Shown here piece after piece: positions 16,596 to 31,318 of a stretch of DNA of 31,318 nt; positions within the stretch are counted from its first letter, which is position 1; each line of letters starts with the position of its first letter. Below the pieces are notes generated by a model that was given only the letters and a program-made list of their open reading frames with translations, was not told the origin of the DNA and ran no database searches. This DNA is from an uncultured Prevotella sp. (GTDB lineage: Bacteria; Bacteroidota; Bacteroidia; Bacteroidales; Bacteroidaceae): the NCBI GenBank assembly GCA_900770515.1, contig CAAHDP010000339.1, positions 1 to 31,318 on the forward strand, given 5' to 3'. A program made the translations under genes and the position numbers.

Positions 16596-18254
16596 TTATA
16601 CAAAGAACATGATAATAACCTGGGCGATGATGACTCGGATAAACATTCCCAGCGGATACACCGTGGCGTAGCTGATGCTAGGGGTGTCGCCATCCAGCGT
16701 CTCGTTGGCATAGGTGAGTGCCATCGGATTCGCCATGCTTCCACAGAGGATTCCACAGATGCTTCCGAAATCATACTTCTTGGTCTTCAGGATGATGAAG
16801 CCCACGATGACCACAGGAACCACCGTGATGAGGAAACCGATGCCTACCCACATCAAACCCTCGGGACGAATCACCGTCTCGAAAAACTGTCCACCTGCCG
16901 ACAAGCCCAAGCAGCCCAGATAGAGAGCAAGACCCAGTTCGCGCAGCATCAAACCGGCACTTCGCGTCATATAAGAGATGAACTGCACACGAGGACCGAG
17001 GGCACCAATGAGAATACCCATCACGATAGGACCGCCGGCAATGCCCAGACGCACAGGCGCCGTCATGCCCGGAATATGAAGCGGAATGGTTCCCACGGCA
17101 AGACCGAAGATGATTCCCAGGAAGATGGCACCCAGATTAGGCTCGTTGAGCGTCTTCACGGCATTACCCAGAAACTGCTCCACGTGGTCGATGCTCGTTG
17201 GGTCGCCCACCACGGTAAGGCGGTCGCCGTATTGCAGACGGAGGTCGTCGGTGGCAAGCAGTCGGATATCACCACGCAGCACTCGGCTCACGTTCACACC
17301 GTAGGTGTTGCGCATCTGGAGGCTTCCCAGTCGCTTTCCGTTGAGTCCCGGACGGGTCATCACGATGATTCGGCTTTCCAGTTTGGCATCGATGGCATTC
17401 CAGTCTACCTTATCATTATTCCACTCCTTATCCACCTTCTTTCCGAAGAGAATCTGCATGGCTGATACCTCATCCTTGTTGGTAACCACGAGCACATTGT
17501 CGTTGGTATGAAGCACGGTATCAGCCTCAGGCACAATAACCTGTTCGCCTCGCCACACTCGGGAGATGATGAACTTGCGATGGGTCATCATCGAAATTTC
17601 GGCGATGGTATTGCCATTGAGTGCCGGATTCACGATGATATACTGTCCGATGGCAGTATGGTCATCCTCATCGGCACGTCGAATCTCTAGGTCTTCGGGC
17701 TTGACAAATAGCTTGCGCAGGAACATCATCGCCAGGATGACGCCCACCACACCCAGCGGATAGGTGACGGCACAGCCCAAGGCAGCCCCGCCGCTAGGCA
17801 AGCCCAACTGCTGCAATGCCTGCTGGGCAGCACCCAGGGCAGGCGTATTGGTGGTGGCACCGCAGAGGATGCCCACCATATCGGGCAGACTTACAGGCAG
17901 CACCAGGCAGAGGAGGAGGGAAAACAGAGTTCCTACCACGATGACCGCCAGGCTCCAGAGATTGAGCGCGATGCCTTCGTGGCGCATGGAGCCGAAGAAG
18001 TTAGGGCCCACATAGAGTCCCAGCACGTATACAAACATGGTAAGTCCGAAACTCTCGGCAAACTCCAGCATGTCAGGGTCGATGGAGAGTCCGAGATGGC
18101 CCGCCACGATTCCCACGAAGAAGACGAAGGCGATGCCCAGGGAGATACCTTTTACATGGAGCTTGCCGAGGGCAAGTCCCAAAGTACAGATCAATGAAAG
18201 AATGACGATGCCTTGCACCGCCGAATGCACGTTGATTAAATTATCAAACCACAT
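16596..18254 (-). CDS. AspT/YidE-type transporter with paired TrkA-C domains
   Basis: I start the protein at the ATG at 18254 (MWFDNLINVHSAVQGIVILS); an in-frame extension upstream runs through the promoter and is not coding-like. The 552 residues fit the AspT/YidE/YbjL duplication family. It has an N-terminal membrane half with GLTMFVYVLGLYVGPNFFGS and GATTNTPALGAAQQAL, two cytoplasmic TrkA-C domains in the middle (MTHRKFIISRVWRGEQVIVP and LGSLQMRNTYGVNVSRVLRG), and a second membrane half with GPIVMGILIGALGP and GILCGSMANPMALTYA. AspT itself exchanges aspartate and alanine, but most relatives have no known substrate. It stands alone, with its own promoter, divergent from the sugar kinase. 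Confidence 0.9.
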   Translation of the reverse strand: MWFDNLINVHSAVQGIVILSLICTLGLALGKLHVKGISLGIAFVFFVGIVAGHLGLSIDPDMLEFAESFGLTMFVYVLGLYVGPNFFGSMRHEGIALNLWSLAVIVVGTLFSLLLCLVLPVSLPDMVGILCGATTNTPALGAAQQALQQLGLPSGGAALGCAVTYPLGVVGVILAMMFLRKLFVKPEDLEIRRADEDDHTAIGQYIIVNPALNGNTIAEISMMTHRKFIISRVWRGEQVIVPEADTVLHTNDNVLVVTNKDEVSAMQILFGKKVDKEWNNDKVDWNAIDAKLESRIIVMTRPGLNGKRLGSLQMRNTYGVNVSRVLRGDIRLLATDDLRLQYGDRLTVVGDPTSIDHVEQFLGNAVKTLNEPNLGAIFLGIIFGLAVGTIPLHIPGMTAPVRLGIAGGPIVMGILIGALGPRVQFISYMTRSAGLMLRELGLALYLGCLGLSAGGQFFETVIRPEGLMWVGIGFLITVVPVVIVGFIILKTKKYDFGSICGILCGSMANPMALTYANETLDGDTPSISYATVYPLGMFIRVIIAQVIIMFFV

Positions 18255-18309
18255 AGTGTTGTTTAAATTTCTATTCCCGAGATAATGTTCGTTTATTCTA
18301 TTTCGGCTG

Positions 18310-18340
18310 CAAAGGTACATTAAAATAAGTATTCTACAAA
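18310..18340 (-). promoter_or_regulatory. Promoter of the AspT/YidE-type transporter
   Basis: On the minus strand TACCTTTG (18317-18310), followed by GCA, has TTTG at 18340-18337 upstream with 19 bases between. The leader is about 50 bases to the ATG at 18254. Confidence 0.75.
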
Positions 18341-18399
18341 AGAAAAATGTTCTTTTCTTCCCAATAATTCCAACAAAAGTAGAAATAAAAGAAGAGACG

Positions 18400-18431
18400 T
18401 TGCCCTGAATCGAAGATTTTTTGTAACTTTG
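18400..18431 (+). promoter_or_regulatory. Promoter of the PfkB kinase
   Basis: TAACTTTG (18424-18431), followed by CA, has TTG at 18400-18402 with 21 bases between. The ATG lies about 19 bases downstream. Confidence 0.75.
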
Positions 18432-18450
18432 CAGCCGTTTTAAAATAAAA

Positions 18451-19323
18451 ATGATGAAAGATATTTGTTGTATTGGACACGTAACGAAGGATAAGATTGT
18501 TACTCCCCACCGCACGGTTTACATGGCAGGCGGCACTTCTTTTTATTTTGCCTACGCCATCAACCAGTTGCCCAAGGACGTAAGTTTCTCGCTGGTTACG
18601 GCAATGGATCCTACAGAAACTGAACCGATAGAGAAGATGCGCCAGGCTGGCATCGACGTCACCCTGAACCCATCGCGCAACACGGTGTTCTTCGAGAACA
18701 TCTACGAGGAAGACCAGAACAAGCGCAAGCAGCGCGTGCTTGCCAAGGCAGACCCATTCACCATCCGGCAGCTGGAGAAGGTGGAGGCGAAGGTTTACCA
18801 CCTGGGCAGTTTGCTGAGCGATGATTTCTCGCCAGAGGTAGTGGAGTTCCTCTCACGCAGCGGCAGGGTTTCCATCGACGTGCAGGGTTATCTGCGCGAG
18901 GTGAGAGACGAGAAGGTTTATCCCATCGACTGGAAGGACAAGCTGGAGGTACTGAAGCACACCTATTATTTAAAGGTGAACGAAACGGAGATGGAGACCA
19001 TCACGGGACTGAAGGAACCCCGGGAGGCAGCCAAGCTCATCCATTCGTGGGGCGTTACCGAGGTAATCGTCACCCTGGGCAGCGAGGGTTCTCTGATTTA
19101 TGTAGATGACACCTTCTACGAGATTCCCGCCTATCCTCCTCACGAGGTGGTGGATGCCACTGGATGCGGCGACACCTATTCGGCAGGTTATCTCTACAAG
19201 CGACTGCAGGGTGCCACCCCTACCGAAGCAGGCAAGTTTGCTGCAGCCATGTGCACCATCAAGCTGGAGCACAACGGTCCGTTCAACCGCAGCATCGAGG
19301 ATGTAGAGCAGATTATCAAATAA
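18451..19323 (+). CDS. PfkB/ribokinase-family sugar kinase
   Basis: A protein of 290 residues. The N-terminus (GHVTKDKIVTPHRTVYMAGG) matches the substrate-binding start of PfkB kinases. Near the C-terminus is the family signature DATGCGDTYSAGYLYKRLQG, with the catalytic base D241. NETEMETITG and VTLGSEGSLIY are further typical segments. It would phosphorylate a sugar or nucleoside with ATP in the cytoplasm, but the substrate cannot be told: it is slightly short for ribokinase and its neighbours give no pathway. It is monocistronic, with its own promoter and a strong terminator 12 bases after the stop. The start could be the first or second of two adjacent ATGs. Confidence 0.88.
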   Translation: MMKDICCIGHVTKDKIVTPHRTVYMAGGTSFYFAYAINQLPKDVSFSLVTAMDPTETEPIEKMRQAGIDVTLNPSRNTVFFENIYEEDQNKRKQRVLAKADPFTIRQLEKVEAKVYHLGSLLSDDFSPEVVEFLSRSGRVSIDVQGYLREVRDEKVYPIDWKDKLEVLKHTYYLKVNETEMETITGLKEPREAAKLIHSWGVTEVIVTLGSEGSLIYVDDTFYEIPAYPPHEVVDATGCGDTYSAGYLYKRLQGATPTEAGKFAAAMCTIKLEHNGPFNRSIEDVEQIIK

Positions 19324-19334
19324 ACATGTTATTT

Positions 19335-19379
19335 CAGAACCCCAAATAGGAATATAAAGCCTGTTTGGGGTTCTGTTTT
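19335..19379 (+). terminator. Strong rho-independent terminator after PfkB kinase
   Basis: A perfect 12-bp stem (19335-19346 with 19364-19375) is extended by AGG/CCT inside. The run TTTTG follows at 19376-19380. It separates the kinase from the fimbrillin operon. Confidence 0.92.
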
Positions 19380-19453
19380 GTTATATTTTCCGCTTATTTG
19401 TATCAAATTGAGGTTCATCATGAAAGAAAAATCAGAAATGAACCATTATGAAC

Positions 19454-19484
19454 TTGTATAGTTTCCCATTTTTCATTATCTTTG
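19454..19484 (+). promoter_or_regulatory. Promoter of the fimbrillin/protease/kinase operon
   Basis: TTG at 19454-19456 and TATCTTTG at 19477-19484, followed by CA, are separated by 20 bases. The leader to the ATG at 19524 is about 33 bases. It is the only convincing promoter I see before 30400 on this strand. Confidence 0.78.
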
Positions 19485-19523
19485 CAAGCAAAATCATAAA
19501 CTAATAATTTAAACTACGAACAA

Positions 19524-20444
19524 ATGAAAGCAATGAAGCAATTCGGAATCCTAGCATGCAGCCTACTCGCTCTTGCAGCATGCTCATCGGGAAGCAGCAG
19601 CGACCCTCCTTCATCAACAGGACAAGAGAGCAAGAAGTTGCCAATCCATATCAATACCTCTATTGATACACGAGTCATCAACAACTCTTTCGAGGAAGGA
19701 GACAACATCGGTTTGTTTGTAGTCAACTACAATGCAGACGGTTCTGCAGCCACCCTCAAGGCAACAGGCAATCATGTGGACAACATGAAGTTTACCTATA
19801 ACGGCACATGGACTCCAGCCTCTCCTACCTATTGGAAAGACGACACCACCCCTGCCGATTTCTATCTGTATTATCCATACACCACCACTATCGGCGATGT
19901 AACTGCCCTGGCATGGAGCGTGAATGCAGACCAGAGCACAAGCGAGAAATACAAGGCAGGCGATCTGCTGATAGGCAAGACCACCCATGTGGCTCCTACC
20001 GAGAATGCCGTGAAGATTGATGCGAAGCACGTGATGAGCCAGATGGCCATTTCCCTGAAGCCAGGCAATGGCTTTACCGAGGAATCGCTGGGCAAGGCAA
20101 AGATCAGCGTAAAGATTAACCAGCTGAAAACCCAGGCTACCGCCAATCTCGTAACTGGCGAATTGACTGCCAAGGGCGATGCTGTCGACCTCACTCCGCT
20201 GAAGGAAGAAGGCAACAACTATAAGGCACTCATCATTCCGCAAGCTGCAGGCGAGGGCGTGCTCATCACCGTGAACGTGGATGGCAGAGACTACCAGCTG
20301 AAGAAGGCAGACAATTTCACCGCCTTCGAAGCAGGAAAGAAGCATCAGTTTACCGTAACCCTGGGCAAGACCAGCAATGGTGTGAATGTAAACATCACCA
20401 AGTGGGAAGACGACGGAATCGACTACGGAGGCACAGCAGAATAA
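19524..20444 (+). CDS. Fimbrillin-family lipoprotein (Mfa-like), first copy
   Basis: A protein of 306 residues with lipobox LAAC (C20) and a serine-rich mature start. It has the features of the Mfa_like_1/fimbrillin family: R50 in IDTRVINNSFEEGDNIGLFV, a YWKDDTTPADFYLYYPY strand, a DQSTSEKYKAGDLLIGK loop and a KHVMSQMAISLKPGNGF segment. In known Porphyromonas fimbriae an arginine-specific protease cuts at a TR site to free a groove for the next subunit; the TR here may play that role, which is inference. It heads an eight-gene operon and is clearly paralogous to the N-terminal part of the next protein and to the third gene. No dedicated FimCDE or Mfa tip genes are seen. Confidence 0.88.
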   Translation: MKAMKQFGILACSLLALAACSSGSSSDPPSSTGQESKKLPIHINTSIDTRVINNSFEEGDNIGLFVVNYNADGSAATLKATGNHVDNMKFTYNGTWTPASPTYWKDDTTPADFYLYYPYTTTIGDVTALAWSVNADQSTSEKYKAGDLLIGKTTHVAPTENAVKIDAKHVMSQMAISLKPGNGFTEESLGKAKISVKINQLKTQATANLVTGELTAKGDAVDLTPLKEEGNNYKALIIPQAAGEGVLITVNVDGRDYQLKKADNFTAFEAGKKHQFTVTLGKTSNGVNVNITKWEDDGIDYGGTAE

Positions 20445-20471
20445 AAAGATTCACTCTTAAACAAAGACGAT

Positions 20472-23400
20472 ATGAGAACAATTCATATTTCCAAGCACAC
20501 CTTATTATATTATATGGTGGCTTTGGCAGCCATGCTCTTCACAGGCTGTAGCGATGATTTCTTCGGCAGCAGCGAACAGCATGACAGCAACCGCATCCAG
20601 CTATCGGGCGATATCGAACAGGTTGCCGTGACCCGCGTCAACGACAACGGTTTCTGCAATGGCGACGTGATGGGTGTTTACATCGTAGATTACGATGGCA
20701 ATACTCCTGGAACCCTGAAGGTTAGCGGCAACCGTGGCGACAATGTGCGCCACACCTTTGATGAGCCTAACTATAAATGGAGTTCGGCCTACGATCTTTT
20801 TTGGAAAGACAAGCATACTCATATTGATGTGTATGGTTACTATCCTTTTGCCAACCCTGAGAGCATCGAAGACTATCAGTTTGAAGTGCAAAAGGACCAG
20901 AGCAGCACAACGTCAGAGGGTGAGATGGGAGGTTACGAAGCGAGCGATTTTCTCTGGGGGAAGGTGTCCGATGTGGCTCCTACCACCAGCGTTATCCGTT
21001 TGCCTCTGGCTCATCGCATGTCTAATGCCCGTGTTACCCTGATTCAGGGTTCAGGTTTTGCCGAGGGCGAATGGGCGAATACCAAGAAGATAGTCTTGAC
21101 AGCCAATGTGGCTCGCAAGGCAAGCATCAACCTTTCTACCGGCGAAATCAAGACTGCCGGAAGTGCAGAAAGCACCATGACCATCCCATCTCGTGTCAAC
21201 GACGAGTGGCGCACCATCGTGGTTCCTCAAACCGTGGCAGCCGGCACTACCCTCTTCAGCATCACCATCGGTGGTGTGCCTTATAAGTTCACTAAGAACG
21301 AGGCACTTACCTACGTGGCAGGCAAGATGATGAACTTCGGTATCAAGGTGGATAAGCAGGCAGGAAGCGGCGCTTACAAGCTGACATTGGTAAGCGAAAG
21401 CATCACTCCTTGGGAGAATGATTTGGTAAGCCATGATGCTACGGCGAAGGAGTATATTGTCATCAACTCTACAGCAGGTCACCTGAAAGAGGCGATTGCT
21501 GCGGCAAACAAGGACTATACCAAGATTAAGAATCTGAAGATTACGGGTGAGATAGATGCGCATGATTTCTATTTCATGCGAGATTACATGCCTTCTCTTT
21601 CAGCGGTCAACTTGAAAGAAGTAAGAATCAAAGAAGGATTCGAAACAGAGGGAGGTTTGCCCATTGGGGGAAGAGATGACGAATTGCCTACTTATTGCTT
21701 TTTAGAAAAAAAGATTTTAACTCGTATTGTTTTTCCAGACTCTCTTAAAAGAATAAATACTTATGCACTAAAGTCTTCAGGATTGAGCGGTTCGTTACAA
21801 ATTCCAGAAGGTGTAGAAGGAATCGAAGAGCAAGCTTTTAGCTACTGCCCAAATCTCAATGGTACTTTAACACTACCATCGACTCTCAAAGAAATGGGTA
21901 AAAGCGTATTCGGTGGCGATAGTTTTACTGGCGAATTAAAATTACCTGAAGGACTTGAGGAAATAGGTGAAACTTGCTTCTGTGGAATTCAAGGTTTTTA
22001 TGGCGAATTAAAGCTACCAAGTCATCTCAAGAAACTGGGTGCGGGCGCATTTAGCGGCTGCAGTAATCTTACAGGAGATCTCGTTATACCTCAAACTATA
22101 ACAGAAATTCCTTCTGGTGCTTTCTCTGGCTGTGGTTTTGGTGGCAATCTTCAGCTTCATAATGGTATTATTACTATTGGCGAGGGGGCTTTTTCCGGCT
22201 GTAGTTTCAGGGGAGAACTTATCTTGCCAAAAGATTTGCAAACCATTTCACCAGAATGTTTCTACGGAAACGATTTCTCGGGTGAACTGAAATTACCGAA
22301 GAACGTGGCTAATATCGGTAGAAAAGCCTTCGCTTGTAACAGGCGTTTAACGGGAACCCTAGAGATTCCGGAAGATGTTGCCAATATTGGAGCTGGCGCT
22401 TTCGCACAATGTAGCAATTTAGAGAAAATTATTCTCCCAAGCAATCTAGAGATCATTGCTTATGAGAATCATGAAGGCGGTGCTTTCGAAGACTGTTTTG
22501 GCATTAACAGCATTGTATGCAAGGGCACGATGCCTCCTGACATACAAAGTGGTGCTTTCGATGGCGTAGCCAAGGATAACTTCACAGTAGAAGTTCCTGA
22601 ATCTGCCGTTTCCCTGTATCAATCAGCCAACGGCTGGCGCGAATTCAAGCGCATCGCAGCCCACCACGAGCTCGTTTGCCGTCCATCTGTGGCCTCCGCC
22701 CTGAGCACGGAGCACAAGCAGAAACTGGTGATTAACGCTGAAGGCGAATGGGAAGTAGCCAGCAAGCCAGACTGGTGTGAGGTTTCTCCTGCCAGCGGCA
22801 ACAAGAAAACAAAAGTTACCCTGACCATCAAGGGAATGGCCAAGAATGCTGATAGCCGTGATGGAAAGGTGGTGTTCCGTCTGAAGGACAAAGACTACAC
22901 CCACGAGTGCAACGTTTCTCAGTATGGCTATGAATACGGCGAGGACGAATGGATTACCCTGCAGAAGGCTACCAAGGGCAACAAGGGTGGAATCAACATC
23001 GTTCTGCTCGGCGACGGCTTTAATGCAAAGGATATTGCCAGCGGAGACTATCTGAAGGATATCAAGCAGGAAGTGGAGTATTTCTTCGGTATTGAGCCTT
23101 ACAAGACTTACCGTGATTACTTCAACGTCTATACCGCCATTCCACTTTCTGCGGAATCGGGCGTGGGAACCGTGAATACCATCCGCTACAACCGATTCAA
23201 CACCACCTTTACCGGTGGCGTAGGCTTGAAGGCAGATTACGACGAAGTATTCAGTTATGCTCTGGGTGCTCCAACCGTAAACAAGAGCAATCTGAACCAG
23301 ACGCTGATTATCATCGTTCCTAATTCTACCGATTACGGTGGCATCTGCCAGATGTGGCAAGACGGATCGGCAATAGCCTTCTGTCCTCAGAGCACCTACG

Positions 23401-23960
23401 GCTATCCACTCGATACCCGAGGCGTGATTCAGCATGAGGCAGGCGGACACGGATTCGGAAAGTTGGGCGATGAGTACATTTATCACAATGCCTTCATCGA
23501 TGCCTGCAAATGTATGTGCTGTGAACACGAAAATGCAGTCATCACAGCCAAATCGCACGGCTGGTATGACAACCTGGAGCTTACGGGCAAGATGCACAGC
23601 GTAGGCTGGAGCCATCTGATCTTCGACGACCGCTACAGCGACATCGTGGATATTTACGAGGGAGGCTACATGCACAGCCGTGGCGTCTTCCGCTCGGAAC
23701 CGAACTCTTGCATGAACAACGATATTCCTTACTACAGCACCATCAGCCGTGAGAGTATCGTGAAGCGCATCAAGGCTTATGCCGGAGAAACCTACAGTTT
23801 CGAAGACTTCGTGAAGAACGACAAGCGAGATGCAGGAATCGTGGAAAGCCGTACCTTTGGCGGCAATGGCGACCAGCGCACCGCAGGAACCTATCAGCAT
23901 GCTCCTATGATTCACAAGAGCAGTCCGCTGAAGATGGCAAAGGTGAGAAGGCATCGCTAA
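20472..23960 (+). CDS. Fimbrillin-LRR-BACON-M64 metallopeptidase fusion lipoprotein
   Basis: A protein of 1162 residues. The lipobox is FTGC (C26). A fimbrillin-like domain covers about 40-320, with R55 in VTRVNDNG, FWKDKHTHIDVYGYYPF and GGYEASDFLWGK. A BspA-type leucine-rich repeat region (about 380-729) has a period near 24 residues of the form GELKLPxxLxxIGxxAF. A BACON-like domain (about 730-818) precedes an M64 (IgA-peptidase-type) metallopeptidase domain at about 825-1150. The presumed metal site is HEAGGHGFGKLGDEY with H988, E989, H993, D1000 and E1001; note three residues, not two, between E and the second H. A cysteine cluster CKCMCC (C1012-C1017) follows. It is probably surface-exposed, joining adhesion to proteolysis. 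The LRR region is visibly more AT-rich than the flanks. Confidence 0.87.
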   Translation: MRTIHISKHTLLYYMVALAAMLFTGCSDDFFGSSEQHDSNRIQLSGDIEQVAVTRVNDNGFCNGDVMGVYIVDYDGNTPGTLKVSGNRGDNVRHTFDEPNYKWSSAYDLFWKDKHTHIDVYGYYPFANPESIEDYQFEVQKDQSSTTSEGEMGGYEASDFLWGKVSDVAPTTSVIRLPLAHRMSNARVTLIQGSGFAEGEWANTKKIVLTANVARKASINLSTGEIKTAGSAESTMTIPSRVNDEWRTIVVPQTVAAGTTLFSITIGGVPYKFTKNEALTYVAGKMMNFGIKVDKQAGSGAYKLTLVSESITPWENDLVSHDATAKEYIVINSTAGHLKEAIAAANKDYTKIKNLKITGEIDAHDFYFMRDYMPSLSAVNLKEVRIKEGFETEGGLPIGGRDDELPTYCFLEKKILTRIVFPDSLKRINTYALKSSGLSGSLQIPEGVEGIEEQAFSYCPNLNGTLTLPSTLKEMGKSVFGGDSFTGELKLPEGLEEIGETCFCGIQGFYGELKLPSHLKKLGAGAFSGCSNLTGDLVIPQTITEIPSGAFSGCGFGGNLQLHNGIITIGEGAFSGCSFRGELILPKDLQTISPECFYGNDFSGELKLPKNVANIGRKAFACNRRLTGTLEIPEDVANIGAGAFAQCSNLEKIILPSNLEIIAYENHEGGAFEDCFGINSIVCKGTMPPDIQSGAFDGVAKDNFTVEVPESAVSLYQSANGWREFKRIAAHHELVCRPSVASALSTEHKQKLVINAEGEWEVASKPDWCEVSPASGNKKTKVTLTIKGMAKNADSRDGKVVFRLKDKDYTHECNVSQYGYEYGEDEWITLQKATKGNKGGINIVLLGDGFNAKDIASGDYLKDIKQEVEYFFGIEPYKTYRDYFNVYTAIPLSAESGVGTVNTIRYNRFNTTFTGGVGLKADYDEVFSYALGAPTVNKSNLNQTLIIIVPNSTDYGGICQMWQDGSAIAFCPQSTYGYPLDTRGVIQHEAGGHGFGKLGDEYIYHNAFIDACKCMCCEHENAVITAKSHGWYDNLELTGKMHSVGWSHLIFDDRYSDIVDIYEGGYMHSRGVFRSEPNSCMNNDIPYYSTISRESIVKRIKAYAGETYSFEDFVKNDKRDAGIVESRTFGGNGDQRTAGTYQHAPMIHKSSPLKMAKVRRHR

Positions 23961-24010
23961 TGGCGATAGCCAGGTTCATCATAGTATAGACCATTAAAAT
24001 ATAGAAAAAC

Positions 24011-24907
24011 ATGAAGAAACATATAATAAGATACGCAAGTTTTGCGTTCGCTATATTAGGAATGGTATCTTGCAGCGAAGAGCAGGAAACGGCTCTTCGC
24101 CCGCAGGATGCGAAATCCACACCGATGACTTTCCTGGTAAGCCATCCGGGACAAGCAACCCGTGCCACAGAAACCAGCTTTGAGCAAAACGACAGGATTG
24201 GTCTCTACGTGGCAGACGCAAAGGCGCAGCTGGAAATAGGAGGCAACCTGGTGAACAACGAGGCGCTTACCTACGACGGAAGCAAATGGGCGGCAGCCCG
24301 AACCCTCTACTGGGACAAGGGCACCTATACTGCCTATGCTTACTATCCCTACATGGAAGATGTAAGCAGCATTACAGACCAGCCCTTCAGCGTAGTCCTA
24401 GATCAAAGCACCGCCAAGAGCAAAGAAGCCCTGGGCGGCTATGAGGCAAGCGACCTGCTCTTTGCTACCAGCAAGAACATTTCGGCATCAGCCTCACCCA
24501 TCCCGCTCAACTTCAAGCACATCATGAGCAAGCTCAAGATAAGACTGGTAAAAGGAGAGGATTTCGAGGGCGACATGCCTACCACGGCACAGGTAACCAT
24601 CCACAACACGGTGCCTACTGCCACCATCGACCTGCAGGCAGGAGTGGCAACCCGTTATGTAAAGGGAACCCGAAAGAGCATCATCGCCCATCAGGACGAT
24701 GCAACCAGCTATTCCGCCATCATCGTGCCTCAGCGCATCGAAAACCGAATGCCGCTCATCGAGGTGGTGATGAAAGGCGTGAGCTATCTCTTCGAGAGCA
24801 AGTTCCAGTTTAAGCCGGGAACCGAGCATCTCGTCAACCTCATCATCTCCGACAATCCGGACCAGGTGAAGATTGACATCGGTGGAGAAATAACAGATTG
24901 GCAATAA
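24011..24907 (+). CDS. Fimbrillin-family lipoprotein (Mfa-like), third copy
   Basis: A protein of 298 residues with lipoprotein signal and C21 in MVSC. It shares the fimbrillin layout with the two genes before it: R51 in ATRATETSFEQNDRIGLYV, YWDKGTYTAYAYYPY, LDQSTAKSKEALGGYEASD and FKHIMSKLKIRLVKGEDF. The GGYEASD segment is shared with the M64 fusion but not with the first fimbrillin, so this copy seems closer to the fusion. It ends at ITDWQ, the usual C-terminal strand of the family. It probably forms part of a surface fibre or a lipid-anchored partner of the protease. It is followed after 12 bases by the NTF2-like gene, so it is cotranscribed. Confidence 0.87.
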   Translation: MKKHIIRYASFAFAILGMVSCSEEQETALRPQDAKSTPMTFLVSHPGQATRATETSFEQNDRIGLYVADAKAQLEIGGNLVNNEALTYDGSKWAAARTLYWDKGTYTAYAYYPYMEDVSSITDQPFSVVLDQSTAKSKEALGGYEASDLLFATSKNISASASPIPLNFKHIMSKLKIRLVKGEDFEGDMPTTAQVTIHNTVPTATIDLQAGVATRYVKGTRKSIIAHQDDATSYSAIIVPQRIENRMPLIEVVMKGVSYLFESKFQFKPGTEHLVNLIISDNPDQVKIDIGGEITDWQ

Positions 24908-24919
24908 GAATAAAAAATA

Positions 24920-26002
24920 ATGAAGAAGACGGTAAGTATTTTATCCCTTCTGGTTCTCCTTCTTGGAGTTTGGGCGGCAGCATTATGGCTGTCGCCCTTC
25001 AATGCTTATAATGGGAGCAGCAAGGAAAACCGATACGGAGTGAACGAAGGATTGGAACTGGTAGAACAGGAAAACGCCCAAGAGGGCAAGCGATACGTGG
25101 TGGAAGATGAAGACGGCAAAGAGCTGTTTGTCATCCCCTTACGTGGCTGTCTGCTCGACACCCGCTATCGCAACGGGCAACTCCGATTCCGGGAGAAGAA
25201 CACGAAAAGAGAAGGATACATAGACCGTCAAGGCAGGATTTTCCTGAATGAAAATGCCGGAGAATACAAACCGGCAGAAGACCGGAAAGACTTCGCAAAT
25301 CTGACGGGGGAAAAGAAGGGCTTGGCAGATAGACCATCCGCAGGAGGCACAGAATCTACTGGAGGCACAGGCTCAACAGGAACCGCAGGATTTGCTGCAT
25401 CCGCCCAACCAGGCAGGAAGTCAAGCGCCCTCTCGCAGGTAAATCTCAAGACGATGGCGCAGAGCAATCCCTTCTATAAGGAAGCCTCGAAAATCATGCA
25501 GGGAAAACTGGCAGAAACCGATGCCCAGCGCCGCCGCACCATCCTGAACTACTGCGAGCATTTCCGCACAGCCTACACCACCAAGGACATTGATTTCCTG
25601 CGACAGGTGTTCAGCGACAAGGCGCTCATCATCGTGGGAAATGTGGTGAAATCTATCGCCAACGACGATAAATGCCAGGCAGAAAGCCGGGTTACCTTCG
25701 CCATCCATTCCAAGCGCGATTATCTTGCAAGGCTTTCAAAGGTGTTTGCTGCCAACCAGAAAATCGACGTCAGATTTTCGGGGTTCCGCATCCTACGCCA
25801 CCCTACGATGGACGGAATCTACGGTGTAACGCTCAGACAGCAATACAAGAGCGACCGGTATAGTGATGACGGCTACCTCTTCCTGCTCTGGGATTTCAGA
25901 GACAAGTCGATGCCGCTCATCCATGTGCGCACCTGGCAGCCAGCTGCCACCGTACACTCAGGCGATGATGTGATTAATATTCAAGACTTTAATTTAGAAT
26001 AA
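24920..26002 (+). CDS. Membrane-anchored NTF2-like protein of unknown function
   Basis: A protein of 360 residues. A hydrophobic N-terminus (about 5-25) serves as a signal or anchor. It is followed by a small region with a WG-repeat-like strand (EGYIDRQGRIFLN), a Gly/Ser/Thr linker (GGTESTGGTGSTG) and a C-terminal domain at about 185-345 that resembles the NTF2/SnoaL fold (RRRTILNYCEHFRTAYTTKD, IDFLRQVFSDKALIIVGNVV, then YGVTLRQQYKSDRYSDDGYL). I recall this C-terminal pattern as strongly conserved across Bacteroidetes, always uncharacterised. NTF2-like domains often bind small ligands or form dimers; no catalytic residues can be named. The gene lies 12 bases after a fimbrillin and 9 bases before the next gene, within the operon. 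Confidence 0.7.
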   Translation: MKKTVSILSLLVLLLGVWAAALWLSPFNAYNGSSKENRYGVNEGLELVEQENAQEGKRYVVEDEDGKELFVIPLRGCLLDTRYRNGQLRFREKNTKREGYIDRQGRIFLNENAGEYKPAEDRKDFANLTGEKKGLADRPSAGGTESTGGTGSTGTAGFAASAQPGRKSSALSQVNLKTMAQSNPFYKEASKIMQGKLAETDAQRRRTILNYCEHFRTAYTTKDIDFLRQVFSDKALIIVGNVVKSIANDDKCQAESRVTFAIHSKRDYLARLSKVFAANQKIDVRFSGFRILRHPTMDGIYGVTLRQQYKSDRYSDDGYLFLLWDFRDKSMPLIHVRTWQPAATVHSGDDVINIQDFNLE

Positions 26003-26011
26003 AAGAAAAAT

Positions 26012-26989
26012 ATGATGGGAGAAGTTAAAACCCAATGCCTGCTACTAGCCATGATTCTCTGGCTAGCCATTCCTTCTGCCCTTCGGGCACAGGAGTTTTC
26101 GGTGGCTAGTTTCCGCCAGCTGCCTAACGATGTGAGCGCCTTTATCAACAATGTGCGTGACCTGAACGATGAAGCCTGCGCCCTGATCAAGGTGGTGGCA
26201 CCATCCGACTTTGCCTTCTCCTCCCCTCTCGGCATCGTGAAGCGAAAGGACGAAGTGGGCGAAATCTGGCTCTATCTGCCGAAAGGCACCAAGACCCTCA
26301 CCCTGAAACATCCCGAATGGGGCGTGCTGCGCAATTACCGACTGGGCAAACCGCTGGAGAGCCGAATGACCTACGAGATGAAGCTCAACCTGCCCAAGCC
26401 TCCCATCACGGAACTCCACGATACAATAGTAGAGATAAAGACCATCACCGACACCATCGCCATCGAGAAAGTGCGCCCCAAAATGCCACTCGCCTTCTAC
26501 AGTCTGGCTACCCTTGCCCTGCACAAAGACGGACCCTCTTACGGCATCTTCCTTGCCCTGATGCGCCGCCATGGTTTCTTTCTCCATGCCAGCAGCAATC
26601 TGAAAAGCCTGGGAAGCACGGAGGGCAACTGCGACAAGGATGGCTTCATCGGCGGAAGCAACATCAAGCCCTATTATTCGGGCGAAACCCGCCACACCAA
26701 CTATACCATGACGGCAGGACTCATCCACCACATCACGCATGGCGTCTGCCTTTTCGAAGGCGTAGGATACGGCAAGTCGGCCACAGCCTGGCAACTGAGC
26801 GAGAGCGAAGGAAAAGGTTATCTGATCAACGACGGACTTTCTGATAAAGGAGTAACCGCAGAACTGGGAGCCCTGGCTTCCTTCGGAAAACTCAGTATTT
26901 CAGCCTCAGCCATCACCATCGCCGGAAAGCAATGGCAGGGCAGCATCGGAATAGGAATCAAACTGGGAAAATCAAAAACCGGGAAATAA
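26012..26989 (+). CDS. Secreted PEGA-like protein with C-terminal barrel-like half
   Basis: A protein of 325 residues with a cleaved signal (about 1-27, ending ALRAQ). The N-terminal half, FRQLPNDVSAFINNVRDLND followed by EACALIKVV, GEIWLYLPKGTKTLTLKHPEWG and MTYEMKLNLP, looks like the PEGA-type beta domain often found in Bacteroidetes envelope proteins. The C-terminal half has alternating glycine-rich strands (YGIFLALMRRHGFFLHAS, TAGLIHHITHGVCLFEGVGYG, GSIGIGIKLGK), like a small outer-membrane barrel. I infer an outer-membrane location. It pairs with the NTF2-like gene 9 bases before it; I recall the two families as frequent neighbours. The last codons and the following gap consist of short CYGGGAAA repeats. 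Confidence 0.65.
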   Translation: MMGEVKTQCLLLAMILWLAIPSALRAQEFSVASFRQLPNDVSAFINNVRDLNDEACALIKVVAPSDFAFSSPLGIVKRKDEVGEIWLYLPKGTKTLTLKHPEWGVLRNYRLGKPLESRMTYEMKLNLPKPPITELHDTIVEIKTITDTIAIEKVRPKMPLAFYSLATLALHKDGPSYGIFLALMRRHGFFLHASSNLKSLGSTEGNCDKDGFIGGSNIKPYYSGETRHTNYTMTAGLIHHITHGVCLFEGVGYGKSATAWQLSESEGKGYLINDGLSDKGVTAELGALASFGKLSISASAITIAGKQWQGSIGIGIKLGKSKTGK

Positions 26990-27025
26990 TCTGGGAAATC
27001 AAACCTGGGAAAATAATCCGGGAAA
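26963..27025 (+). repeat. Five CYGGGAAA repeats across a stop codon and gene gap
   Basis: The word CTGGGAAA or CCGGGAAA occurs at 26963, 26979, 26991, 27005 and 27018, spaced 12-16 bases apart. It covers the final codons of the PEGA-like gene and the gap to the LRR gene. It looks like slippage-generated DNA. Confidence 0.75.
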
Positions 27026-27031
27026 ATAAGA

Positions 27032-28747
27032 ATGAACATCAAGATGAAAAGTAAACTGATTATATATTTAGGAATAATGCTGGCTATTCTCACGGCATGC
27101 AGCAGCGAGAAACCCACCCATCTGGAACCGCATCTTGCCACTCTCCCTGCTTCCTGCATTACCCGAAACGAGGCCACTCTGCACGGTTCGGTTTCGCTGG
27201 AGGGAGAGACCACCCTGCCTACCCTTTCCTTCAGGTATGGAGAGACGGAGGAAATGGCGCTCACTTCAAATCCTATCAGCCTTTCAGATGAAGACAGCAA
27301 CCCTTCGGGGAATGGCCAGTCCACCAAGGAAGTGGCACTCTGCATGATGGGGCTGAAGGCAGGTACCACCTATTATTATATGCTGCAGGGAAGCAACGGC
27401 AGAATCATGCTCAGCAGTAACCCGATGAGCTTCACCACCCTGCCCAACGAAAAGCCAACCCTTAACGATCCGCAGGTTCTGAGCTATGGTCCCTGTAGCA
27501 TCATCGTGGGCTTCGACATCGCGGCAAATGGCGGTGAAGAGATTACGGAAGCAGGATGTTATTATGCAGAAGATGGAGAGAATGGAGAAAATGGAGAGGA
27601 AAGCGGAGATGGCGATGCAACCCCTACGCAGCAAAAGGCGAAGATAGAAAACTACCAGGGAGCCATCGGAGCGCAGCAGGTGAAACTCAACGACCTGAAA
27701 TTCAACACCACCTACAGAATCTGGGCTTACGCCCAAAACCGGGTAGGCGAAACCAAGAGCCAAGCCATCACCTTCAGGACTTCAGACGCCGTAAAACTGC
27801 AGGAAGCAGGAAAACTGAGCGAACTGATGGGCAATCATCTCAACGAATACACCCAGCTCACGATAGCCGGCGACCTGAATGGAGACGACCTGAGATGCCT
27901 GAGAACGATGGCAGGAAGAGACATCAACAATGAAACCACGGAAGGAAAACTTGCCGACATCAACCTGGCTGATGCGCACATCGTAGCAGGAGGAGGCGAC
28001 TTCGGACCTTATCATCGCCACACCGAAAATCAGGTGGTGGGTCAGGGATTCCTTGCCCAATGCAATCAGCTCAGCCACATCCTCCTTCCATCGGATGTCA
28101 TCAAGATAGAGAAAGATGCGTTTGCCGGCTGCACATCGCTGAAGGAAATAGAGATTCCAGCCTCTGTAAGCCAGCTGCTTCCATCAGCCGGTTGCACGGC
28201 GCTGGAAAGCATCCAGGTTTCGAAAGCCAACACCCACTACAGCAGTCTGGATGGAGTACTGTTTAATGCAGCCGGAACCGAAATTCTCTGGTTCCCGATG
28301 GGAAAAAAGGGCGACTACACCCTGCCTTCCACTCTTTCTGGCATCGGAGATTATGCTTTCAAGGAATGCAGCATCACCCGCTTCATCTTTCCGAATAGTT
28401 TTTCTGAAATAGGACAGGGAGTGCTGATGAACAGTCAGGTGGAAGAGGTTTCTCTGCCAGCCCAACTCAAGCTGATTCCTACGGGCACCTTCCAGGGATG
28501 CACCCGCCTGAAGGTGGTAAGATTGGGAGAGAAGACAGAGCTCGTCTCTGATTACGTGTTCGACGGCTGTCCGCTCACCGACCTCTACGTCGATGCCCCC
28601 TATCCACCCGTATGCAATACGAATGCCTTCACCACCAAGGGCACTCGTTTCCTCCCTACCTGCGTGCTTCACGTACCGGCAGGCAAGAAGAAGCTCTATC
28701 AGAACAACAAAAGCTGGAGCAAGTTTGAACACATTGTTGAGCAATAA
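27032..28747 (+). CDS. Lipoprotein with FN3-like and BspA-type leucine-rich repeats
   Basis: A protein of 571 residues with lipobox LTAC; the start may be the first ATG or the one four codons later. Two fibronectin-III-like segments follow (FRYGETEEMALTSNPISL with GLKAGTTYYYMLQG, then NDLKFNTTYRIWAYAQN), separated by an acidic low-complexity stretch (EDGENGENGEESGDGD). The second half has BspA-type LRRs: SHILLPSDVIKIEKDAFAGC, LKEIEIPASVSQLLPSAGC and LPSTLSGIGDYAFKEC. It ends with the usual C-cap ending LHVPAGKKKLYQNNKSW. BspA-type proteins are surface adhesins binding host matrix proteins or other bacteria. It stands in the operon between the PEGA-like gene and the regulator/kinase pair, so it may be the adhesin or sensor arm of that system. 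Confidence 0.82.
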   Translation: MNIKMKSKLIIYLGIMLAILTACSSEKPTHLEPHLATLPASCITRNEATLHGSVSLEGETTLPTLSFRYGETEEMALTSNPISLSDEDSNPSGNGQSTKEVALCMMGLKAGTTYYYMLQGSNGRIMLSSNPMSFTTLPNEKPTLNDPQVLSYGPCSIIVGFDIAANGGEEITEAGCYYAEDGENGENGEESGDGDATPTQQKAKIENYQGAIGAQQVKLNDLKFNTTYRIWAYAQNRVGETKSQAITFRTSDAVKLQEAGKLSELMGNHLNEYTQLTIAGDLNGDDLRCLRTMAGRDINNETTEGKLADINLADAHIVAGGGDFGPYHRHTENQVVGQGFLAQCNQLSHILLPSDVIKIEKDAFAGCTSLKEIEIPASVSQLLPSAGCTALESIQVSKANTHYSSLDGVLFNAAGTEILWFPMGKKGDYTLPSTLSGIGDYAFKECSITRFIFPNSFSEIGQGVLMNSQVEEVSLPAQLKLIPTGTFQGCTRLKVVRLGEKTELVSDYVFDGCPLTDLYVDAPYPPVCNTNAFTTKGTRFLPTCVLHVPAGKKKLYQNNKSWSKFEHIVEQ

Positions 28748-28769
28748 AAACAAAAAAAACACTTAGAAT

Positions 28770-29339
28770 ATGACAACACCTGAAATAGAAGAATTAAAGT
28801 CTCTCGTGGAGCAGGAATACGGCAAAATACTAGCCACCACCACCGACTTTGAGGAATTCTCGTTCTTCCTCGAAAAGCATACAGGCGGCAAGGTTTCACC
28901 CTCAACCCTGAAGCGACTCTACGGTTATGTGAGCGACAACCACAAGCCACGCATGGTGACGCTCGATATTCTTGCGCAATATATTGGGCACAAGAACTAC
29001 ATGGAGTTCAAGCAATGGCTGAAGACCAGTACCCGCTACAACTCCTCGTTCTTCAAGGCAAGCCAGCTGGTAAGCAGCGACCTGAAGAAGGGTACGGAGA
29101 TAGCCATCGGATGGAGCCCCAACCGCATTCTGCGCCTACGCTATCTGGGCGAGAGTACCTACGAAATACTTGCCTCAGAAAACAGCAAACTTGAAGCAGG
29201 CGATCATTTCGTTACTGGATGCTTCATCAAGGAGCAGCCGCTCTATCTGCCTTACATCGAGCGAAACGGCGAGCGTACCGCATCGTTCGTGGCAGGAAGA
29301 AACGGAGGTCTCACCCTTATCAGCATCATCAGCCAATGA
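28770..29339 (+). CDS. Bacteroidetes-type predicted DNA-binding regulator
   Basis: A protein of 189 residues, predicted cytoplasmic (no signal peptide). The N-terminal about 85 residues (EKHTGGKVSPSTLKRLYGYV, then MVTLDILAQYIGHKNYMEFK) match an HTH-like segment seen in many Bacteroidetes proteins, where the TLKRLxGY and LDILAxxxG words recur; DNA binding is predicted but, as far as I know, unproven. The C-terminal part (GTEIAIGWSPNRILRLRYLG, EAGDHFVTGCFIKEQPLYLP) is a small beta domain of unknown role. Its stop overlaps the kinase start as ATGA, so the two proteins are made together. It is a natural candidate for the kinase's substrate or the operon's regulator; that is inference. Confidence 0.65.
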   Translation: MTTPEIEELKSLVEQEYGKILATTTDFEEFSFFLEKHTGGKVSPSTLKRLYGYVSDNHKPRMVTLDILAQYIGHKNYMEFKQWLKTSTRYNSSFFKASQLVSSDLKKGTEIAIGWSPNRILRLRYLGESTYEILASENSKLEAGDHFVTGCFIKEQPLYLPYIERNGERTASFVAGRNGGLTLISIISQ

Positions 29340-30340
29340 AAACAACGTCAGATAAGTCAATAAACACAACGTCAGATAAGCCGATGAAGACAACATCAGG
29401 ATTCACGGAAGATATCAACAAGGAGATGAACGTTGCCGAACCCCAGCCGGTGGAGTCCAGGTTCAGCAACCTCAGCCAATGCTACGTCTCCATCTCTGGG
29501 CACACCCGCATCTTCACAGCCACAAGATACGGCAAGCGCTACATGCTGAAATGCCTGAAGAACGACTTTCTCTATACGCCCATCTACCGACAGGCTTTGA
29601 CCAAGGAATTCGAGATAGGTCTGCAGTTGGAGCACCCCAACATCTGCCATACCATAGGCATGGAAGAAGTGGAGAACCTGGGCACCACCATCGTGATGGA
29701 ATTCATTGATGGCGACACGCTGCAATATCTGATAGACCAGCAACTGCTCACGGCGGAAATGGCGCACAAGATAGCCCACGAACTGATGGACGCCCTGGAA
29801 TACATGCATAACAAGCAGATGATTCATCGCGACCTGAAACCCGCCAACATCATGGTAACCCACAATGGCAAGAACGTGAAGCTCATCGATTTCGGACTTT
29901 CCGACAGCGATTCCTTCACCATTCTCAAACTGCCGGCTGGAACCTCGGGCTACATCGCCCCGGAACAACTCCTGCCGGGAGCCAAATCAGACCCTCAGGC
30001 AGACATTTATTCGCTGGGCATGGTGCTTCTCGACATGGCGAAGGCCACCCACGACAGGCACCTCAGGCAGACGGCAGAAGTATGCATAAGCCGCGACCTG
30101 AGCATCCGTCCCAAGAGCATCCGCGAGATAAGAGAACACAAGCATGAATCGCCCCTGCTGAAGGCAGGCGGCATCGTTCTCGGCATCATCGCCCTGCTGC
30201 TCATCAGCCTCATCGCCTTCACCTATTATCATAGGGCGCAGTCAAAAGAGAAGCAGAATGTGCCGACAGAAAACGGCAAGAATGATTCGCCGGATGATAA
30301 CGCCAACGAGATTCAGGACTATCAACTCTGGCAGAGATGA
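29336..30340 (+). CDS. Hanks-type Ser/Thr protein kinase with C-terminal membrane anchor
   Basis: The ATG at 29336 is chosen because it overlaps the previous stop (ATGA); a longer frame upstream lies inside that gene. The protein has 334 residues. Kinase motifs are complete from the lysine on: K72 in YMLKCLK, HRDLKPAN (D166, K168, N171), D185 in IDFGLSD, GTSGYIAPE (E210), D223 and R258. The glycine-rich loop is degenerate (SISGHTRIFTATRYG). The late lobe is short. A membrane helix at about 276-297 is followed by a 37-residue polar tail, presumably periplasmic, with no PASTA or other sensor domain. The N-terminus has a TTSDK-type repeat. It is the last gene of the operon and probably phosphorylates its neighbour or envelope-associated targets. 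Confidence 0.9.
   Translation: MKTTSDKSINTTSDKPMKTTSGFTEDINKEMNVAEPQPVESRFSNLSQCYVSISGHTRIFTATRYGKRYMLKCLKNDFLYTPIYRQALTKEFEIGLQLEHPNICHTIGMEEVENLGTTIVMEFIDGDTLQYLIDQQLLTAEMAHKIAHELMDALEYMHNKQMIHRDLKPANIMVTHNGKNVKLIDFGLSDSDSFTILKLPAGTSGYIAPEQLLPGAKSDPQADIYSLGMVLLDMAKATHDRHLRQTAEVCISRDLSIRPKSIREIREHKHESPLLKAGGIVLGIIALLLISLIAFTYYHRAQSKEKQNVPTENGKNDSPDDNANEIQDYQLWQR
29341..29399 (+). repeat. ACAACGTCAGATAAG tandem repeat in the kinase N-terminus
   Basis: Two exact copies of ACAACGTCAGATAAG and a third partial copy encode TTSDK blocks within the first 21 codons. They sit before the kinase fold, in a part likely to be disordered. Confidence 0.75.
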
Positions 30341-30391
30341 TGGGAAAAATGATAGTCTTTAAACATAATTATCCTATTATCTTCTTATTTT

Positions 30392-30449
30392 TGCCTGAAT
30401 TGGTGTAACTTTGCAACCAATTATGGAACAGATTTCACCAATTCAGGCA
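30392..30449 (+). promoter_or_regulatory. Promoter box framed by a 14-bp inverted repeat
   Basis: TGCCTGAATTGGTG (30392-30405) is perfectly inverted at 30436-30449. The -7 box TAACTTTG (30406-30413) begins at the next base after the left arm, and the right arm lies in codons 5-9 of the helicase gene. The arm starts are 44 bases apart. No TTG lies about 20 bases above the box. This is a good candidate operator. Confidence 0.7.
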
Positions 30450-31318
30450 TTGTTGCAGCAACGCACCCTGCTCCAACTGGAGTATTACACCGAGAAGGAA
30501 GCCTTCCGCAAGCTCACCGAACAGATGGGCATGAAGCGAAAGGTGAAACGAGGTGATGCCTGGTTCCCGCTACAGGTGGGAAAGAGCTTTTATAATTCGC
30601 TGAACCAAACAGCCATCGAGGTATTCCGTACCTCGGATCAGGATATCGAGCACAATTTTGAGTTCGGTCGCCCTGTCATGTTCTTCAGAGGTGAAGAACA
30701 GATCAAATACTTTTCCTTTACCGGCACCGTGAGCTATGTAGATGGTGACAGAATGGTGATTACCGTTCCTGATTCAGCCCCGCTGCTCGATTTGCAGCAG
30801 TCTACGGAGCCTATCGGCGTACAGTTGTCCTTCGACGAAACCAGCTACAAGCTGATGTTCGAGGCCTTGGATAGAGTGATGAAGGCGAAGAACAACCGTC
30901 TGGCTTATCTCCGCGACTTGTTCTATTCGCATCAGAAGGCGGGCAGATTCTCGTTTGCCCCGATGAAGTTTCCTTGGCTCAATCCTACCCAGGAAAGAGC
31001 TGTGAATGAGGTGCTCTGGGCAAAGGATGTGGCTATCGTTCACGGACCTCCGGGAACCGGAAAGACCACAACCCTGGTGGAAGCCATCAACGAAACCCTG
31101 ATGAGGGAGAGCCAGGTGCTGGTGTGTGCACAGAGCAACATGGCGGTGGATTGGATTTCAGAAAAACTGGTAGATAGAGGCATCAACGTGCTCAGAATAG
31201 GAAACCCTACCCGTGTGAACGACAAGATGCTGGGCTTCACCTACGAGCGCCGTTTCGAGAGTCATCCCGACTATCCGCAGCTCTGGGCTATCCGCAAGGC
31301 TATCAGAGAATTAAGAAA
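30423..31318 (+). CDS. IGHMBP2/UPF1-like superfamily 1 helicase (partial, 5' part)
   Basis: The frame opens at ATG 30423, ten bases after a -7 box, and runs off the window end after 298 codons. The first about 190 residues include a beta-rich part (FEFGRPVMFFRGEEQIKYF, TGTVSYVDGDRMVITVP). Then come a PTQERAVNEVLWAKD Q-motif-like segment, Walker A GPPGTGKTTTLVEAI and motif Ia CAQSNMAVDWISEKL. This order is that of the SF1B helicases related to IGHMBP2 and UPF1, which unwind nucleic acid with ATP. Motifs II to VI lie beyond the window, so activity cannot be confirmed. The gene seems separate from the kinase operon, with its own promoter. Confidence 0.85.
   Translation, partial: MEQISPIQALLQQRTLLQLEYYTEKEAFRKLTEQMGMKRKVKRGDAWFPLQVGKSFYNSLNQTAIEVFRTSDQDIEHNFEFGRPVMFFRGEEQIKYFSFTGTVSYVDGDRMVITVPDSAPLLDLQQSTEPIGVQLSFDETSYKLMFEALDRVMKAKNNRLAYLRDLFYSHQKAGRFSFAPMKFPWLNPTQERAVNEVLWAKDVAIVHGPPGTGKTTTLVEAINETLMRESQVLVCAQSNMAVDWISEKLVDRGINVLRIGNPTRVNDKMLGFTYERRFESHPDYPQLWAIRKAIRELR

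Follow-up and report, generated by a model that had tools for sequence, protein, structure and literature searches.

A conserved eight-gene surface cassette of Prevotella with a rigidly placed promoter repeat and a candidate kinase-based switch

What brings a membrane-anchored Ser/Thr kinase into one run with genes for fimbrillin-like surface lipoproteins? The question is raised by a stretch of 31,318 nucleotides from an uncultured Prevotella sp. (contig CAAHDP010000339.1 of assembly GCA_900770515.1; hereafter the window), in which eight plus-strand open reading frames (ORFs) span positions 19524-30340: two fimbrillins (genes 1 and 3), a fimbrillin–M64 peptidase fusion (gene 2), an NTF2-like protein (gene 4), a predicted outer-membrane barrel (gene 5), a leucine-rich-repeat (LRR) lipoprotein (gene 6), a regulator candidate (gene 7) and the kinase (gene 8). 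Because their order and gene set recur in other genomes, the cluster goes beyond chance, and that the eight genes form a real conserved unit is hardly in doubt. In front of gene 1 stands a 20-bp repeat, rigidly placed and linked to the cassette, which may be the point at which genes 7 and 8 control the surface proteins. All results are computational; the ORFs were called mechanically, and many of the genomes compared are fragmented.

A recurrent eight-gene cassette

The preliminary description of the locus, made from the sequence letters, had claimed eight genes on a shared strand with gaps of 50 bases or less, a single promoter in front, no terminator inside and an ATGA coupling of regulator to kinase, and all of this is borne out. 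The intergenic gaps from gene 1 to gene 8 are 27, 50, 12, 9, 42, 22 and −4 bases, the last being the ATGA overlap of genes 7 and 8 (the start of gene 8 was set at the ATG at 29336; a longer ORF from 29219 would run into gene 7). The sole plus-strand terminator-like site found in a scan of 17500-31318 lies at 19072-19089, and none falls within 19524-30340. Matches of sigma-70 type occur at chance level (11 found vs 12.8 expected), and this is not the relevant promoter type at the locus; a Bacteroidetes-type −7 element precedes gene 1, the consensus being −7 TAnnTTTG with −33 TTTG according to PMC7366714. Within the cluster TAnnTTTG has one plus-strand match (23852, in the M64 gene), at the chance level of 1.2 expected from shuffled sequence, and two further matches (30386 and 30406) lie between gene 8 and the next gene. 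No known RNA element was found in the window at gathering scores.

The gene order of the window recurs in 12 other genomes, five of which come from a genus sample of 120 genomes; four of these recurrences are incomplete, three (L033, L036 and L097; L and G numbers denote loci and genomes) being cut at contig ends and one (L035) having an M64 gene split over two ORFs. Among named relatives the nearest found was Prevotella sp. P5-50 (locus L001), a pattern scan of contigs having returned a single relative with patterns that may fall on variable parts. In 201 genomes sampled from the family to which G001 (the genome of P5-50) belongs, matches at E values up to 1e-3 are found for gene 5 in 41 genomes and for gene 4 in 67; gene 7 is matched in 72 at up to 1e-10 and the kinase in 58 at up to 1e-25, kinase and regulator counts depending on the E-value cut-offs. 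Close matches to gene 5 (E below 1e-60) are found in 12 of these genomes, and in all 12 a kinase relative lies within about 13 kb of gene 5, with a regulator relative beside that kinase in 11 (the exception is G037) and fimbrillin/M64 genes in the stretches read in 10 (not in G009 and G138). Seven of the 12 keep the window order on one strand (G001, G023, G049, G070, G104, G119 and G139; G070 and G119 are cut at contig ends, and the M64 gene of G104 is in two ORFs). In the genus sample the same six of the 120 genomes hold all the close matches, taken at E values below 1e-40 for gene 5, below 1e-90 for the kinase, at or under about 1e-80 for the regulator and below 1e-170 for the M64 domain, cut-offs that were placed at gaps in the match lists; weaker relatives are more widespread (kinase in 32 at 1e-40, regulator in 47 at 1e-20, M64 in 26 at 1e-20). 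The five genomes new from this sample keep the window order; in G258 the contig ends within the cassette, and gene 1 and the M64 fusion sit on another contig.

Flanking genes within 6 kb are common to just five pairs among 13 loci compared, all within L033-L036; over the range covered by the loci, the cassette therefore stands in differing surroundings. G009, G037, G138, G150, G180 and G466 have rearranged layouts; in G009, G037, G150, G180 and G466 the kinase is on the strand opposite to the surface genes, and in G150 and G180 it lies more than 10 kb from gene 5. The association of kinase and cassette thus survives rearrangement. When the window is compared with eight complete cassettes, the M64 domain is 79-92 % identical, the highest conservation overall of any domain in the cassette; identities are 62-88 % for the regulator, 57-76 % for the catalytic part of the kinase, 53-63 % for the LRR part of the M64 protein, 46-74 % for the barrel of gene 5, 31-49 % for the FN3 part of gene 6 and 18-31 % for the transmembrane (TM) segment and tail of the kinase. 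Greater variability of surface-facing parts is what would be expected of a surface system.

Table 1. Positions of the promoter elements and the eight genes in the window
Feature	Position	Strand	Basis
20-bp tandem direct repeat TATGAACCATTATGAACTTG (AATGAACCAT TATGAACTTG), candidate operator	19437-19456	+	upstream-region comparison
Bacteroidetes-type −7 element TATCTTTG	19477-19484	+	20 bp after repeat; consensus from PMC7366714
Gene 1, fimbrillin-like lipoprotein, 306 aa	19524-20444	+	PF13149, E 9e-65; lipobox by eye
Gene 2, fimbrillin – BspA-type LRR – BACON – M64 peptidase fusion lipoprotein, 1162 aa	20472-23960	+	Pfam
Gene 3, fimbrillin-like lipoprotein, 298 aa	24011-24907	+	PF13149, E 2e-64
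Gene 4, N-terminal hydrophobic segment and NTF2-like domain, 360 aa	24920-26002	+	Cds6_C, 28.2 bits (cut-off 27)
Gene 5, N-terminal beta domain and C-terminal 8-stranded outer-membrane barrel (predicted), 325 aa	26012-26989	+	structure model
Gene 6, FN3-like and LRR lipoprotein, 571 aa	27032-28747	+	LRR_5, E 2e-29; FN3-type below cut-off
Gene 7, regulator candidate, N-terminal five-helix and C-terminal beta domain (predicted), 189 aa	28770-29339	+	AlphaFold2
Gene 8, Hanks-type Ser/Thr kinase, one hydrophobic segment, 39-residue tail, 334 aa	29336-30340	+	PF00069, E 1.5e-36

Other origins were considered for the cluster and rejected. As to a phage, the gene 7 protein (P0007) has no relative in viral contigs and the gene 5 protein (P0005) a single viral match (24 residues, 50 % identity, on a 5.3-kb contig); against PHROGs neither is matched, and the gene 4 protein (P0004) has one match at E 0.042. 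As to a defence system, the PADLOC matches of the kinase are to general kinases among the 25 listed of 37, and the operon is not classed as defence.

A rigidly placed promoter repeat

The repeat upstream of gene 1 has one match in the window at up to three mismatches and none in 100 shuffles, and CTTG, its final four bases, stands in place of the −33 element. Ahead of the first fimbrillin gene, in 14 other genomes as well as in the window, the repeat is near-invariant, unlike the spacer, and the distance from the start of the repeat to that of TAnnTTTG is 40 or 41 bases (a gap of 20 or 21 bp). The next annotated gene after the site is the first fimbrillin (in G180 a 212-aa ORF without a Pfam match lies between), and the contig that bears site and gene 1 in G070 and G119 is separate from that of the rest of the cassette. 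At up to two mismatches the site is found in 13 of 17 cassette-type genomes vs none of 18 others, the reversed control pattern giving two matches in the same 35 genomes; in one of the 13 (G289) the match at this level lies outside the cassette, the site of the cassette itself having three mismatches, and in G258 a three-mismatch site before gene 1 is followed by the −7 element at +42. The 201 family genomes hold 27 sites, 12 in cassette-type genomes and 15 elsewhere. Those with at most one mismatch are all in cassette-type genomes (8 of 8), whereas the 15 elsewhere all have two mismatches, a number that the reversed control pattern also gives, and none of these 15 is accompanied by a −7 element.

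A composite pattern of repeat and −7 element, run without mismatches on 399 genomes (the 201 included), gave 12 sites in 10 genomes and no control match. Seven of the 10 were known cassette genomes and three were new (G466, G360 and G430); the prediction that fimbrillin and M64-fusion genes follow the site holds in two of these three, G466 having a full rearranged cassette and G360 a fimbrillin and an M64 fusion before the contig ends. Across 1,280,138 bases of loci, 47 listed matches (up to four mismatches, −7 element at +40/41) are all cassette or extra sites; many of them are the same place twice, and, the loci being a chosen set, they give no genome-wide rate. The site upstream of gene 1 in G037 keeps the first repeat, the −33-like end and the −7 element, its second repeat has decayed (four mismatches), and in this genome no regulator relative is found in the stretch read beside the kinase. 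At other regulator–kinase loci (L039-L092) no comparable repeat was convincing except at the cassette locus L075. We conclude that the 20-bp promoter site is real with near certainty. That gene 7 binds it is a proposal that we favour slightly, and the −33 position would fit an activator or a repressor; we lean to activation because the repeat itself includes a weak −33 element (CTTG).

Extra copies of the site outside cassettes and G138 are just five (G049, G070, G001, G289 and G430). In three genomes the site precedes operons of dynamin-like GTPases (L149 301-5060, L151 2723-8887 and L152 507-7054): in G049 a zinc-finger-like protein is followed by LeoBC-like (E 9e-90) and LeoA-like (E 1e-89) dynamins, in G001 three consecutive dynamin-like GTPases follow, and in G289, where the −7 element is imperfect, dynamin-like GTPases likewise. 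LeoABC are bacterial dynamins according to PMC4159319; such proteins are absent from the window and are linked to it by the shared site alone. The G070 copy (L150 2-7950) precedes a zinc-finger-like small protein and, further downstream, a DUF4011/helicase/MTES_1575 nuclease-type protein. In G430 (L155 17600-17882) a perfect site stands before a small zinc-ribbon-like ORF (read by eye), with no cassette gene within the 19.5 kb read and no dynamin in the two large downstream ORFs scanned. A duplicated block of G138, its copies alike at 154 of 220 bases, holds two sites that share a single variant form. One of these sites lies some 400 bases upstream of a minus-strand gene run with LRR/Big_2 proteins, some of which match a type IX sorting tail weakly, below cut-off; the run adjoins a regulator and a kinase–NTF2 fusion. 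Covariation of the two sites within a genome was considered and is not established, G070 and G289 sharing one departure each and G001 none; the G138 pair was rejected as an instance, being a duplication.

Surface proteins, envelope proteins and the kinase–regulator pair

The domain calls of the preliminary description largely stood: Pfam confirms fimbrillin, LRR, BACON, M64, NTF2-like and kinase domains, leaves the FN3 call below its cut-off and gives no support to the PEGA-like one. The PF13149 fimbrillin domain is present in genes 1, 2 and 3 (E 7e-54 to 9e-65), and no fimbrillin matches the curated Fim/Mfa subunit models of NCBIfam at their cut-offs. Gene 2 has LRR_5, BACON and Peptidase_M64 domains in addition, the last matching the family profile PF09471 at 54.1 bits (cut-off 26) and being related to the solved structures 4df9 and 3p1v. 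Its zinc motif HEAGGHGFGKLGDEY (HEAGGH) is one residue longer than the HEFGH of solved M64 proteins, so that the strict HExxH of the family is absent. Each of the 15 cassette M64 genes that include the stretch has HEAGGH, L154 among them; the G180 copy has a stop codon directly after it, and L078 and L083 carry HEFGH like the solved relatives. Dipeptidyl peptidase III uses HExxGH, and for this reason the HEAGGH site may possibly be a working one. In three other loci (L098 1921-13327, L099 3100-13581 and L100 1574-12834) three fimbrillin-M64-type proteins are encoded near one another, accompanied by extra fimbrillins, with no kinase, regulator, NTF2 or barrel gene within the stretch read.

The hydrophobic segment of gene 4 (residues 4-22) may be a membrane anchor or a signal peptide. 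Gene 5, called PEGA-like in the preliminary description, was rejected as such, having no match to PF08308 or any other Pfam family; its C-terminal part is modelled as an OmpX-like eight-stranded membrane barrel of OmpX/OmpA type. A far relative of gene 5 (L102 3142-4908) combines a PEGA domain, outside the stretch matched by P0005, with an outer-membrane barrel. Relatives of genes 4 and 5 are adjacent or close in L102 1260-4908, L103 4952-8762 and L105 6702-13530, with no kinase relative within the stretch read.

Gene 7 had been called a predicted DNA-binding protein. The fold supports this weakly at most, through weak helix-turn-helix (HTH) matches in structure comparison of its AlphaFold2 model (pLDDT 89, pTM 0.53), and sequence lends no support, since no Pfam or NCBIfam match, HTH families of lambda-repressor-like/XRE type included, was accepted. 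It has 632 homologues. Among the fold families listed in that comparison, a galectin- or Sm-like fold was also considered for its C-terminal domain, with scores too weak to use.

Gene 8 has the Hanks-type kinase fold, with HRDLKPAN, DFG and the lysine in YMLKCL; DFS replaces DFG in 11 of the 13 eight-gene cassettes, the window having DFG. In a PDB sequence search the best 60 of 2382 matches are general kinases. There is no PASTA match, and NCBIfam NF033483 reaches just 128.7 bits (cut-off 450). All 59 kinase ORFs examined, that of the window included, have a hydrophobic segment after the kinase domain (mean hydropathy at least 1.69), and six of the 59 are fused to an ectodomain: in L040 kinase and TM segment are followed by an NTF2-like domain of gene 4 type, and in L049 4357-5970, L052 4057-5937, L053 448-2769, L063 2789-5314 and L090 3714-5579 by LRRs, these five fusion genes each adjoining a regulator relative. 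A regulator relative lies within 5 kb of the kinase at 60 of 70 kinase places. DxxxW near the end of the kinase tail is found in 11 of the 13 eight-gene cassettes, not in L038 and L095, whose gene 4 is shorter (275 and 273 aa); a link of tail and gene 4 length is at most a hint, as L038 and L095 may be sister lineages.

Upstream of the operon the window encodes a LytTR response regulator (4752-5558), a TPR histidine kinase (5602-7716), a Reg_prop/AraC hybrid-type regulator (8609-10933) and a pectinesterase (11232-14411).

A candidate trans-envelope switch and its alternatives

We propose that the cassette is a self-contained surface unit with its own trans-envelope switch. Genes 1, 2, 3 and 6 would give the output, surface lipoproteins comprising fimbrillin-type subunits, one of them an LRR/M64-type protease fusion, and an LRR adhesin, and genes 4, 5, 7 and 8 would form the control line. 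In the predicted mechanism the gene 5 barrel and the membrane-anchored gene 4 protein report envelope or fibre status to the gene 8 kinase, an input role that we judge evenly balanced between right and wrong; the kinase would then, presumably by phosphorylation, change the activity of the putative HTH-type regulator of gene 7, a step we hold to be slightly more probable than not; and the regulator would bind the cassette promoter at the 20-bp repeat in the −33 position and, in some genomes, copies before dynamin-like GTPase, zinc-finger or LRR-protein genes. Taken as a whole, this switch is possible, falling a little short of probable. The model of the preliminary description, in which the kinase reads envelope or fibre status and controls the regulator, is in line with the kinase–NTF2 and kinase–LRR fusions. 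Weighing against it, only 12 of the 70 kinase places in the family lie with gene 5, and the wider kinase family pairs with the regulator family and not with the surface set. The co-occurrence with surface genes that had been suggested as a check is thus seen in close relatives (a kinase relative near gene 5 in 12 of the 12 close gene-5 genomes) and not outside them; because the wider kinase family lacks this surface set, the rarity of linkage that had been named as grounds for refutation is in part what is found there.

It may be that the unit is real and the repeat is read by another regulator, e.g., of LytTR type, the kinase–regulator pair having a different envelope role such as secretion of fibre parts. 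The opposite strand of the repeat has GTTCAT twice, resembling LytTR half-sites, a LytTR response regulator is encoded in the window (4752-5558), the L001 cassette has a response regulator (PF00072) after it, and paralogous regulator loci are without comparable repeats; the 10-bp spacing, however, is unlike the LytTR spacing, sites with at most one mismatch are confined to cassette genomes among the 201, four of the five extra sites (G049, G070, G001 and G289) are also in cassette genomes, and the site is decayed in G037, where the kinase has no regulator beside it. We consider this explanation unlikely, if still worth serious attention. It is rather improbable that adhesins and kinase–regulator pair travel together as a horizontal island with no control of the former by the latter: patchy presence (6 of 120 genus and 12 of 201 family genomes) and flanking genes that differ between loci would agree with such co-transfer, which would not lead one to expect kinase fusions to NTF2-like and LRR domains, a kept gene order with the ATGA overlap in the window, or a conserved promoter site common to unlinked genes. 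Also quite improbable is an envelope-damage response, in which the switch would sense membrane or surface damage and induce surface remodelling together with dynamin-like GTPases, the fibres being output and not input. The dynamin-like operons behind the sites in G049, G001 and G289 and the zinc-finger-like small protein that comes first in G049 and G070 point that way, but the extra sites outside cassettes and G138 number just five, the −7 element of G289 is imperfect, the next large gene in G070 is of the DUF4011/helicase/nuclease type instead of a dynamin, and the two large ORFs scanned downstream of the G430 site hold no dynamin.

The proposed kinase-based switch is worth comparing with known systems. 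Like FimA/Mfa-type (type V pilus) loci of Bacteroidales, the cassette has PF13149 fimbrillin-like lipoproteins in one operon; it differs from them in the number of fimbrillin domains, three, of which one is part of the LRR-BACON-M64 fusion, and in having a Ser/Thr kinase and a regulator candidate within the operon. The kinase resembles the Hanks-type receptor kinases of the PknB/StkP class in having a kinase domain, one TM segment and a part beyond the membrane, and differs from them in its lack of a PASTA match, its short tail, NTF2-like or LRR ectodomains being found only in relatives, and the pairing of its family with a regulator candidate. As in the trans-envelope FecR/anti-sigma signalling of Bacteroidetes, an outer-membrane barrel, a membrane-anchored part, an inner-membrane protein and a regulator candidate are brought into one locus, whereas none of the eight proteins matches a TonB-dependent receptor, FecR or ECF sigma factor in Pfam, and the kinase takes their place. 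The LRR fusions (L049, L052, L053, L063 and L090) have kinase, TM segment and LRR in one protein like the LRR receptor-like kinases of plants, in contrast to which the bacterial kinase is N-terminal, the LRRs are BspA-type and, in the window, LRR and kinase belong to different genes; the likeness is likely convergent. A literature search found no described system with this gene set, its partial coverage making this weak evidence from which absence from print is not claimed.

More tentatively still, the kinases and regulators may belong to a trans-envelope signalling class of the Bacteroidales' own, with single-pass Hanks kinases, exchangeable ectodomains (NTF2-like, BspA-type LRR, or supplied in trans via barrel and NTF2 protein) and a dedicated regulator family, which would drive, through the −33 repeat, a small regulon that takes in surface fibres, LRR adhesins and dynamin-like membrane GTPases. 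If the proposed switch is true, common gut bacteria would control adhesive surface proteins through a receptor-type kinase and not through a two-component or anti-sigma system, with DNA site, regulator, kinase and input parts all identified as candidates at one locus. The promoter site, through which two more genomes with cassette genes and the dynamin-like GTPase operons were found, offers a handle for finding regulon members in unannotated genomes, and the LRR–kinase fusions would be a bacterial counterpart of receptor-like kinases.

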